This document shows, piece by piece, positions 21,142-24,255 of a stretch of 64,000 nt of DNA. The stretch spans positions 1-64,000 of the forward strand of contig NZ_JAGSOH010000004.1 in assembly GCF_018139625.1 (NCBI RefSeq), in the 5' to 3' direction. Below the pieces are notes generated by a model, which saw only the letters and a program-made list of their open reading frames with translations, made no database searches and was not told the DNA's origin. Every line of letters starts with the position of its first letter. The stretch's first letter is position 1. The DNA comes from Actinospica acidithermotolerans (GTDB lineage: Bacteria; Actinomycetota; Actinomycetes; Streptomycetales; Catenulisporaceae). Position numbers and translations under genes: made by a program.

Positions 21142-21251
21142 TGGTGTGGTTAGGATGGTGGGTACCGGTCTGGGTGGTGCGCGCACCCGTCCGGCGTTCG
21201 ACTCCCTGGATTGGGCATAGTTACTTATGGGTAAGGGATAGGGTTGCTCAT

Positions 21252-22724
21252 ATGCGTCGCGCGAAGATCGTCTGTACACTCGGCCCCTCGGCCGGCTCTC
21301 ACGAGCAGCTGTCCGCCCTCGTGGCCGCTGGCCTCGACATCGCCAGGCTCAACCTCTCGCACGGCGCCTACGCCGAGCACGAGGAACGATATTTCAACGT
21401 CAGGAAGGCCGCGGACGACGCGGGGCGCGCGGTGGGCGTGCTCGTCGACCTGCAGGGCCCGAAGATCCGGCTCGGCCGCTTCGCGGAGGGCCCGGTCGTC
21501 GTCGAGCGCGGCGACGAGTTCACCATCACCACCGAGGACGTCCCCGGTGACCAGAAGATCTGCTCCACCACCTACAAGGGCCTGGCCGGCGACTGCAAGG
21601 CCGGCGACCGGATCCTGATCGACGACGGCCGGGTGGCCATGGAGGTCGTCGAGGTCGACGGGCCGCGGGTCAAGTGCCGCACGGTCGAGGGCGGCAAGCT
21701 CTCCAACAACAAGGGGATCAACCTCCCCGGCGTCGCCGTCTCCGTCCCCGCGCTGAGCGAGAAGGACATCGCCGACCTGCGCTGGGCGCTCGGCGAGAAC
21801 GAGGTCGGCCTGCGCGCCGACATGATCGCGCTCTCCTTCGTGCGCAGCGCCAAGGACATCGACGACGTGCACGCGGTGATGGACGAGGTCGGCGTGCGCC
21901 TGCCGGTCATCGCCAAGGTGGAGAAGCCGCAGGCGGTCGACAACCTCGACGAGATCGTCGACGCGTTCGACGGCATCATGGTCGCCCGCGGCGACCTCGG
22001 CGTCGAGATGCCGCTCGAGCAGGTCCCGCTGGTGCAGAAGAAGCTCATCACGATGTGCCGCCGGAACGCCAAGCCGGTCATCGTCGCCACCCAGATGCTC
22101 GACTCGATGATCAGCGCCAGCCGCCCCACCCGGGCCGAGGCCAGCGACGTCGCCAACGCCATCTTCGACGGCGCCGACGCGGTCATGCTGAGCGCCGAGA
22201 CCAGTGTCGGCGACTACCCGGTCGAGACCGTCGAGACCATGGCCAAGATCATCTGCGCCGTGGAGGCGGAGGTCCTGGCCAAGGGCCTGCCGCAGGCGAT
22301 CAGCAAGCCGCGCACCAAGGGCGGCGCCGTCGCCCGCGCCGCGGCGGAGATGGGCGACCACCTCTCCGCGAGCTTCCTGGTCGCCTTCACCAAGAGCGGC
22401 GACACCGCCCGCCGCCTCGCCCGGTACCGCAGCCCCATCCCGGTGCTGGCCTTCACCCCGGAGCCGATCGTCCGCAGCCAGCTGGCGCTGACCTGGGGCG
22501 TCGAGACCTTCATCGGCGAGGAGGTCGACAGCACCGACGCCATGGTCGTCCAGGTCGACCACGCCCTGCTCGAGCTCGGCCGCTGCAAGCCCGGCGAGCT
22601 CATCATCATCACCGCCGGCTCCCCGCCCGGAATCCCCGGCTCCACCAACGCCGTCCGCGTCCACCGCGTCGGCGACGCGGTCGGCGGCGCCGCCCCGGCC
22701 TACCGCAAGGCCGAGGCGCAGTAG
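21252..22724 (+). CDS. pyk: Pyruvate kinase
   Basis: A 490-residue glycolytic enzyme converting phosphoenolpyruvate and ADP to pyruvate and [17 protein letters not shown] and [12 protein letters not shown] at the N-terminus, [12 protein letters not shown], then [17 protein letters not shown] and [17 protein letters not shown] mark the active-site barrel. [16 protein letters not shown] and the C-terminal allosteric domain follow. The start is the ATG that begins the conserved RRAKIV; upstream in-frame codons extend into the terminator region and are unlikely. Confidence 0.97.
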
Positions 22725-22820
22725 GTAGGCGCAGTAGGCACGTGCAGGTGCGGTGCGTACGGTAGCCGGCCCCACCGGGCTGCCGAAGTACCGGAGTAGC
22801 CGTCCGTAGCAGCGACGCTC

Positions 22821-22860
22821 GGCGGGTGAGGCCCGGAAGCCTCGCCCGCCTTCGTCGTCT
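22821..22860 (+). terminator. pyk terminator
   Basis: GGCGGGTGAGGC (22821-22832) pairs with GCCTCGCCCGCC (22839-22850), with one T-G wobble, followed by TTCGTCGTCT. A clear intrinsic terminator. Confidence 0.8.
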
Positions 22861-22938
22861 CCGGGCCGGTTCGCTCGTGGTCACAGGTCGCGGTACGGGG
22901 TCGGCGCACACGGGAGCGCTCGTCTCTTTCTGCAGGCA

Positions 22939-23322
22939 GTTGAACGGCATCACCGCCGGGATCGCGCGCTCACACTCGTCCATCAACCCGGGCCAAGCGT
23001 CCGCGCAGGCGATGACGAGAAAGTACACGCCCTTCTCTCGCATGGCGGCGCCGTCGCTGATGCGGCCGTCGCCCAAGTAAAGGCCGAGGAGATAGGAATA
23101 CGCGTATTCATCGAAGCGCAGGAATCCGGGTTCGCAGTGCGGGCAGCGGGCGCGGCGCTTGCCGGGGAGGGTGCCGGATCGTCGGCGATCCTCGTGCTTC
23201 CAGGCGCCGATGGTGCCTGCGGGGATGCCGAGCACGCGCGCGACTTCGGCGTTGCGGACGCCTTCGCGCAGCATTGCGACGGCACGGGTTCGGGTTTCGA
23301 GAGAATGTGCGAACAGTGGCAT
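22939..23322 (-). pseudogene. Truncated HTH / LAGLIDADG-like gene next to a tRNA
   Basis: From the ATG at 23322 about 128 residues look real: an HTH domain (RTRAVAMLREGVRNAEVARV, then GTIGAWKH), a CPHC pair, and YSYLLGLYLGDGRIS. That last block is the first motif of actinobacterial HTH proteins with a homing-endonuclease-like fold. After VMPFN the reading frame degenerates into Arg/Pro-rich sequence running into the pyk terminator, so the second half of the fold is missing. Intact relatives often sit beside the same tRNA. Probably non-functional. Confidence 0.6.
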
Positions 23323-23366: not shown

Positions 23367-23398
23367 ATGCCTATTCACCTGAAGAGATGAATAGGCAT
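23367..23398 (-). terminator. tRNA terminator (minus strand)
   Basis: ATGCCTATTCA (23367-23377) and TGAATAGGCAT (23388-23398) form a perfect 11-bp stem with a 10-nt loop. On the minus strand it is followed by TGTTATTAT, giving a classic terminator 9 nt after the tRNA 3' end. Its AT content is unusual here. Confidence 0.8.
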
Positions 23399-23407
23399 GT
23401 GATATGT

Positions 23408-23481
23408 GCCCCGGGTGGGACTCGAACCCACACTGTATGGGTTTTGAATCCATCGCCTGCTGCCAATTGGGCTACCGGGGC
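23408..23481 (-). tRNA. tRNA, anticodon CAA (Leu), class I shape
   Basis: The minus strand folds into a full cloverleaf of 74 nt: acceptor GCCCCGG/CCGGGGC, T-arm GTGGG-TTCGAGT-CCCAC, and an anticodon loop TTCAAAA giving anticodon CAA, which reads UUG (Leu). The discriminator is A and CCA is not encoded. The variable region is only 5 nt (ACAGT), whereas bacterial tRNA-Leu is class II with a long variable arm. The anticodon stem ends in an A-C mismatch at 31/39 and the D-stem has only 3 pairs. The Leu identity is from the anticodon alone. Confidence 0.85.
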
Positions 23482-23646: not shown

Positions 23647-24255
23647 ATGACCGCCGAGGACAGCAACCAGCCGCGCAAGCGCGTGGTGATCGCCGAGGAC
23701 GAGGCGCTGATCCGCATGGACCTGGCCGAGATGCTGGCCGAGGAGGGGTACGAGGTCGTCGGGCAGGCCGGGGACGGGGCCGAGGCGGTCAAGCTCGCCA
23801 CCGAGCTGCGCCCGGACCTGGTGATCCTGGACGTGAAGATGCCGGTGCTCGACGGGATCTCGGCGGCCGAGCAGATCGGGGAGGCGAAGATCGCCCCGGT
23901 GCTGATGCTCACCGCCTTCTCGCAGCGCGAGCTGGTGGAGCGGGCGCGGGACGCGGGGGCGATGGCCTACCTCGTCAAGCCGTTCTCCAAGGCCGACCTG
24001 GTGCCGGCGATCGAGATGGCGACCTCCCGCTACGACGAGCTGCGCGCGCTCGAGAGCGAGGTTGCGGACCTGCAGCAGCGCTTCGAGACGCGCAAGATCG
24101 TGGACCGTGCCAAGGGGCTGCTCCAGGCGCAGCTGGGGATGACCGAGCCGGCCGCGTTCCGGTGGATCCAGAAGACGTCGATGGACCGCCGCCTGACGAT
24201 GCGCGAGGTCGCCCAGGCCGTCGTGGACGGGACCGCCCCGACCTCCGGCCAGTAG
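23647..24255 (+). CDS. ANTAR-domain response regulator, PdtaR-type
   Basis: A 202-residue regulator. The receiver domain (10-125) has acidic residues DE at 18-19, phospho-acceptor Asp62 in VILDVKMP, and Lys111 in YLVKPF. A coiled linker leads to an ANTAR RNA-binding domain (about 135-192: RKIVDRAKGLLQ, then AAFRWIQKTSMD). ANTAR proteins bind paired hexaloop hairpins in mRNA to prevent termination. The cognate sensor kinase is not nearby. AGAGGGG lies upstream of the ATG. The gene is divergent from the tRNA. Confidence 0.93.
   Translation: MTAEDSNQPRKRVVIAEDEALIRMDLAEMLAEEGYEVVGQAGDGAEAVKLATELRPDLVILDVKMPVLDGISAAEQIGEAKIAPVLMLTAFSQRELVERARDAGAMAYLVKPFSKADLVPAIEMATSRYDELRALESEVADLQQRFETRKIVDRAKGLLQAQLGMTEPAAFRWIQKTSMDRRLTMREVAQAVVDGTAPTSGQ

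Follow-up and report, generated by a model that had tools for sequence, protein, structure and literature searches.

A short-armed tRNA-Leu(CAA) in an actinobacterial locus shared with a LAGLIDADG endonuclease-like gene

Results

The tRNA and its surroundings

The window analyzed here is a stretch of 64,000 nucleotides from the draft genome of Actinospica acidithermotolerans (G000; 7.9 Mb in 422 contigs). ARAGORN finds a single tRNA in it, a tRNA-Leu(CAA) on the reverse strand at 23406-23481, and Rfam RF00005 matches the same gene with 55 bits, against a gathering score of 29 (E 4.1e-9). The tRNA begins with G1 at 23481 and reaches its discriminator, A73, at 23407; CCA is not encoded. The acceptor stem has 7 bp and the D-stem 3 bp, the 7-nt anticodon loop reads UUCAAAA, and pair 31-39 is an A.C mismatch. 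The variable loop, ACAGT, is 5 nt long and falls short of the 10 nt or more expected of the variable arm of a class II tRNA-Leu; we refer to the gene as class I. Directly 3' of it and on the same strand, a hairpin can be read by eye at 23367-23398 (repeat arms 23367-23377 and 23388-23398), probably the terminator of the tRNA. Then follows, again on the reverse strand, a truncated helix-turn-helix (HTH)-LAGLIDADG endonuclease-like gene (22609-23322) with homology to its intact relatives only over 22933-23307. Two forward-strand genes mark the locus: a pdtaR-like response regulator (receiver plus ANTAR; 23647-24255), the divergent neighbor of the tRNA at a conserved locus, and on the other side a pyruvate kinase gene (21144-22724).

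The first-pass annotation had described a well-folding CAA tRNA with a 5-nt variable region in place of the long arm and an A-C pair at 31/39, and each of these observations holds. The mismatch is a lineage trait: of 135 distinct class I CAA genes, 37 share it, and most of the rest have U-A, G-C or C-G. A search for similar DNA retrieved 30 loci, counting that of the window, and all of them carry a CAA tRNA of 74-77 nt. To the ARAGORN and Rfam calls can be added a pairing test, in which 21 class I tRNAs with Leu anticodons (20 distinct) were aligned and 21 pairs scored, comprising the cloverleaf and the 15-48 tertiary pair. Standard pairs fill 98.3% of the cells across the 20 distinct homologues, both sides have changed in 17 of the 21 pairs, and the observed values were reached by none of 500 shuffles. 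Covariation is clearest in the D-stem (GCC/GGC, UUC/GAA, AUC/GAU), in variants of the anticodon stem, and at 15-48 (A-U or G-C). The comparative pattern thus indicates that the gene is under selection as a tRNA, and the compensatory changes rule out a pseudogene or a chance fold.

A class I gene in place of class II at a shared site

Among 60 relatives, own genome counted, 44 carry a class I tRNA of this kind, with the anticodon CAA in every one. Fifteen of the remaining 16 have a class II tRNA-Leu(CAA), and the last, G013, has neither (a draft, 81% complete). No genome with both was found among the 60. Searched with a class II Leu(CAA) pattern, the genomes yielded 14 true genes, none of them in a genome with class I CAA, and one extra match, in G045, that is not a tRNA; the 15th gene, in G011, escaped the pattern and adjoins pdtaR. 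For 39 of the class I genomes (44 in all), class II CAA counts as absent by pattern search only, and the looser form of the pattern missed the G011 gene. A class II Leu covariance model run on 13 genomes found class II CAA in all eight that lack class I CAA and none in G000, G003, G042, G051 and G054, with one GAG-scoring match left unread in each of the last three. The class II model R2 also hit class I Leu tRNAs, but its alignment includes two long-armed GAG genes with a C13 D-arm and is biased by them, and these hits were not counted as proof. Since the draft G000 apparently lacks several common tRNAs, its own lack of class II CAA would say little by itself.

The position of the gene is as constant as its anticodon. 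The tRNA is divergent from pdtaR, at a distance of about 100-200 nt, in 57 of 58 loci, 43 of them class I and 14 class II; the remaining locus, L095, is short and has no pdtaR match, so that all 57 testable loci share the arrangement. The first-pass annotation had proposed counting the other CAA tRNAs and checking the locus for conservation. No second CAA tRNA was found in the carrier genomes, and the idea of an additional gene alongside an ordinary CAA tRNA is rejected on that ground; the pdtaR-divergent position is kept. Class I or class II CAA occupies the same site, no genome having been found with both, and class I CAA therefore replaces the normal UUG reader, one for one at the same locus.

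Breadth across actinobacteria

A class I model matches 360 of 394 genomes of the class at E<=3e-13, and 29 of 30 loci read from these matches are CAA, the other being UAA; at the level of the phylum, 113 of 396 genomes match. A DNA pattern hits at least 119 named stretches, in 118 of which ARAGORN calls a class I CAA tRNA, and pdtaR was found in 113 of those 118. Among the matches listed, the 80 titles are all actinobacterial and include Streptomyces, Kitasatospora, Nocardioides, Cellulomonas, Nocardiopsis, Glycomyces and Alloscardovia. Judged by these matches, class I tRNA-Leu(CAA) is near class-wide in Actinomycetes, and it appears to be the only dedicated UUG reader in much of the class. 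In a 2023 review, the long arm is said to be present in tRNA-Leu everywhere except animal mitochondria (PMC9976931). A mycobacterial study names M. tuberculosis tRNA-Leu 2, 3 and 5 as long-looped, a hint that a short tRNA-Leu exists there too (PMC11541572), and another mentions a short-looped extra tRNA-Leu(TAG) in a mycobacterial tRNA cluster (PMC6582537). We found no description of a class-wide short-armed tRNA-Leu in the open-access literature searched.

Other short-armed leucine tRNAs

Further class I tRNAs with Leu anticodons occur in G000. Near-identical GAG/CAG tandems lie at C419:18917-19110 and C122:68176-68357 (loci L048, L050, L071 and L072), the latter in the neighborhood of a gyrB-like gene, an SMC-type ATPase and a phosphoesterase. 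For UAG, the genome yielded a single tRNA-Leu, at C378:114610-114684 (L049), which is class I as well, so that CUA may also have a short-armed reader. In another genus of the same family (L098, L100, L112, L114, L115), the tandem pairs a short CAG tRNA with a long-armed GAG tRNA, the D-arm of which has C13 and is the same as that of its short-armed partner; in the window's own genus the tandem GAG is short-armed. The long-armed GAG with a C13 D-arm is a possible intermediate of arm loss. Class I UAA exists too, at L223 and in nine of 24 further loci from the phylum, and G053 has a class I tRNA-Leu(UAA) at locus L127. In G035, a class I tRNA-Leu(CAG) (L133) sits within an array of Pro, Gln, Thr and His tRNAs that looks like a mobile or phage island.

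Leucine identity and charging

According to the review, E. coli LeuRS requires A73, the A15-U48 pair, G18G19 and A20a; the sequence and folding of the long arm are uncorrelated with charging, and versions that lack it stay active (PMC9976931). By that list the window tRNA retains A73, U8-A14, A15-U48, G18G19 and A20a, and none of the tested elements (A73, U8/A14, A15-U48, G18G19) involves the long arm. U8, A14, A73 and G18G19 are present in 135 of 135 distinct class I CAA genes, with the 15-48 pair being A-U in 113, G-C in 21 and G-U in one. UUG codons were also examined in conserved genes of the 118 named class I CAA loci and the window: 165 of 201 UUG columns have a Leu consensus from other codons, compared with 181 of 217 for CTT and 1813 of 2471 for CTG. 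A single LeuRS gene is present in 59 of the 60 relatives. The exception, G053, has a second at C1:1377837-1380266 (924.9 bits), possibly a resistance synthetase; a second, dedicated LeuRS was considered and rejected, the extra gene occurring only in this one genome of the 60, which carries class II CAA.

On the strength of the identity elements, the UUG codons in Leu columns and the single LeuRS, we infer that the window tRNA is charged with leucine by the ordinary LeuRS. It has a leucine anticodon and, as judged from sequence, is the genome's reader of that codon, as expected of a functional tRNA-Leu. A leucine tRNA without the long arm means in turn that LeuRS must accept an armless tRNA. 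The statement that bacterial tRNA-Leu is class II is accordingly breached, as the first-pass annotation had noted. The same annotation had gone on to suggest that the molecule might not be charged with Leu, or might have a non-translational role, and neither idea finds support: the class II CAA gene is replaced one for one at the same locus, UUG aligns with Leu, the identity elements are kept and there is a single LeuRS. That the tRNA carries some other amino acid, or acts outside translation, would suit its class I shape and the failure of plain similarity to single out Leu, the nearest tRNAs of its own genome being class I tRNA-Leu(CAG) at 26.5 and tRNA-Lys(UUU) at 26.0. We nevertheless consider it highly improbable, given that this is the sole CAA tRNA found in the carrier genomes, that UUG is aligned with Leu and the LeuRS identity elements are conserved, and that the GAG partner of a tandem class I CAG tRNA has the long arm in one genus and a short one in that of the window.

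The HTH-LAGLIDADG neighbor gene

Intact relatives of the neighbor gene lie on the same strand just 3' of the tRNA; their product, of about 250 residues, carries an HTH at its N-terminus, cysteine pairs and two LAGLIDADG motifs. The window copy retains homology to residues 4-123 of 262; it keeps the first LAGLIDADG motif and has lost the second, and so has neither the intact frame nor the two motifs of a homing endonuclease. PF14528 (LAGLIDADG_3) was tested on eight proteins and scored above its cut-off in two, below it in five and not at all in one. NCBIfam and PHROGs gave no meaningful family, and a sequence search of the PDB returned weak matches only, to HTH parts and I-AniI (best E 0.0034). 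An AlphaFold2 model built from 10 sequences (pLDDT 86.4) matches I-Tsp061I (2dch) at E 9.8e-9, with Z 15.9 over 172 residues at 2.8 A, and reaches the same Z with I-DmoI. Both motif aspartates are present in 67 of 67 matches of >85% coverage, and the median dN/dS is 0.195 for pairs of the same type (160 non-independent pairs). The intact relatives thus have the LAGLIDADG fold and two motifs with catalytic acidic residues, and are putative nucleases on the basis of the model and these residues.

The association with the tRNA is close. The gene is on the tRNA's strand and no more than 400 nt 3' of it in 80 of 82 matches; 42 of 60 relatives have exactly one endonuclease match and none has two, and the listed positions coincide with the CAA locus wherever that locus is known. 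Of 43 class I loci, 19 lack the nuclease gene or have only part of it, and it is therefore not needed for the tRNA; L015 has the 3' tail only. Searches of 50,697 phage records and 72,556 plasmid records found nothing that matched the gene. Six distant relatives were found in IMG/VR (L392-L397; 33-36% identity), every one directly 3' of a tRNA gene, three times tRNA-Leu(UAA) and three times tRNA-Met, although several resemble near copies; their placement suggests a wider family of tRNA-linked endonucleases. Class I tRNA-Leu(CAA) itself also occurs in viral tRNA arrays, as called by ARAGORN in 13 of 14 pattern-matched stretches. We found no description of such a tRNA-endonuclease pair in the open-access literature searched.

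The fold leaves room for a second assignment, since WhiA (8dy7_I) ties with the homing endonucleases at Z 15.7. The neighbor might then be a WhiA-like DNA-binding regulator, as its N-terminal HTH would also suit, and the tRNA, an operator and the HTH half would travel together by linkage and co-adaptation. WhiA, however, is not known to have the catalytic residues, whereas both motif aspartates are kept in all 67 of the relatives above; identity is 8-11% to WhiA and 16-19% to I-DmoI, I-Tsp061I and the TliVMA intein. Moreover, the gene is patchy in distribution and shows decay, and its viral relatives adjoin tRNA genes. We therefore regard a regulator as improbable, and treat the gene as a putative endonuclease in what follows.

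Exchange of the tRNA with half of the endonuclease gene

Mapped onto a tree of pdtaR from 57 loci, tRNA class has to change 13 times, and well supported branches force 11 of these changes; the nine tRNA sequence types need 30. The extent of the exchanged DNA was read from six sister pairs that differ in tRNA class and have the endonuclease gene in both members (L020/L141 and L021/L138 were left out, one partner having no endonuclease gene). From -700 to -100, identity per 100-bp bin is 73-100%. It drops to 55-69% over the final 100 bp upstream of the tRNA and to 34-52% within the tRNA itself, is 29-66% for 500 bp beyond it, and recovers to 72-93% between +500 and +700, a stretch that lies inside the endonuclease gene. 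Where both members are of one type, the control pairs (L030/L031, L096/L097, L111/L118) have tRNA identities of 96-100%; L348/L352, in which two class II types are paired, has 75%. As delimited by these identity profiles, the exchanged unit is shown to be the tRNA, the spacer and the 5' half of the endonuclease gene, about 700 bp. HTH types, assigned by simple expressions to loci with the full gene only, follow the tRNA: type Y is found in 12 of 13 class II loci as against four of 24 class I loci, with type Z in the other class II locus. Across 10 phylogenetically independent pairs, the HTH type switches with tRNA class in about seven and against it in none (median p 0.016).

Such a pattern could also arise from ordinary homologous recombination, with the diversity kept by selection, for example by arm-recognizing toxins or defense nucleases. 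The arm-dependent toxin MenT3 is reported to prefer the long variable loops of tRNA-Ser (PMC11541572), and Septu is described as cleaving the variable loop of tRNA-Tyr (PMC13096335). Exchange between short-armed subtypes, which also takes place, would fit as well, as would the number of types and changes on the tree. Recombination of this sort leaves unexplained why half of an endonuclease gene lies in the exchanged block and why that gene occurs in single copy at one locus, and we think it somewhat unlikely.

Discussion

The reading that we favor, with good though incomplete confidence, is that the window encodes a functional short-armed elongator tRNA-Leu(CAA), presumptively charged by LeuRS, which is the only C34 reader of UUG and resides in an exchange cassette. 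The ordinary LeuRS would charge the armless tRNA by reading A73 and the D-loop/T-loop corner, as in E. coli. Class II and class I CAA genes have displaced each other at the same site many times over; the nuclease would cut alleles of the other type, with repair copying nuclease and tRNA allele together. Whether homing in fact drives the exchange we judge to be evenly poised; the nuclease gene of the window is truncated, so that its allele may be the relic of a homing event. An extension of this idea, toward which we are tentative and on balance doubtful, is a natural "cleave and rescue" element, in which the LAGLIDADG endonuclease would target the tRNA-Leu(CAA) locus and spread by bringing along a cleavage-resistant, recoded tRNA of its own.

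Known systems resemble parts of this arrangement. The window tRNA shares with the E. coli type of class II tRNA-Leu its Leu anticodon, A73, U8-A14, the 15-48 pair, G18G19 and a Leu-like D-loop, but has C13 and no long arm. Human mitochondrial tRNA-Leu(UUR) likewise has no long arm, with identity given as A73 and A14 in the review (PMC9976931); it belongs to an organelle with its own LeuRS, whereas here a single LeuRS of free-living bacteria also serves class II tRNA-Leu. The tRNA of PMC8450103 also has a CAA anticodon and no long arm, but is a Met-derived extra gene; ours is the sole CAA tRNA found, and is not known to be Met-like. The mycobacterial short-loop tRNA-Leu appears in two papers as extra cluster copies or in passing (PMC6582537, PMC11541572), whereas here the short-armed form replaces a housekeeping tRNA.

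As to the nuclease, free-standing homing endonucleases, SegB of phage T4 among them, are described as lying beside tRNA genes and causing co-conversion of neighboring DNA (PMC2988022, PMC13096335). The present gene is similarly free-standing beside a tRNA, but it has a LAGLIDADG fold in place of the GIY-YIG domain; SegB is phage-borne, whereas this HTH-LAGLIDADG gene is chromosomal and is exchanged with one housekeeping-type tRNA gene. I-Tsp061I and I-DmoI have the same double-motif fold and both motif Asp positions as the relatives of the neighbor gene. They are intron-encoded, in contrast to a free-standing gene with an N-terminal HTH and cysteine pairs.

A functional-looking armless tRNA-Leu as the standing UUG reader of a bacterial class contradicts the review statement on the long arm (PMC9976931). 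Class I tRNA-Leu should be reckoned with in tRNA annotation, in isotype classifiers and in work on tRNA-targeting toxins of actinobacteria, the mycobacteria among them. Close species pairs with short- and long-armed forms are natural material for testing the function of the arm, and, with a tRNA gene repeatedly exchanged together with an endonuclease-like gene, homing-driven tRNA evolution becomes directly testable. If the locus is a cleave-and-rescue element, an arms race would have produced the deep remodeling of the tRNA, in which even the whole variable arm may be lost or regained, and the indifference of LeuRS to the arm would have made such remodeling tolerable.
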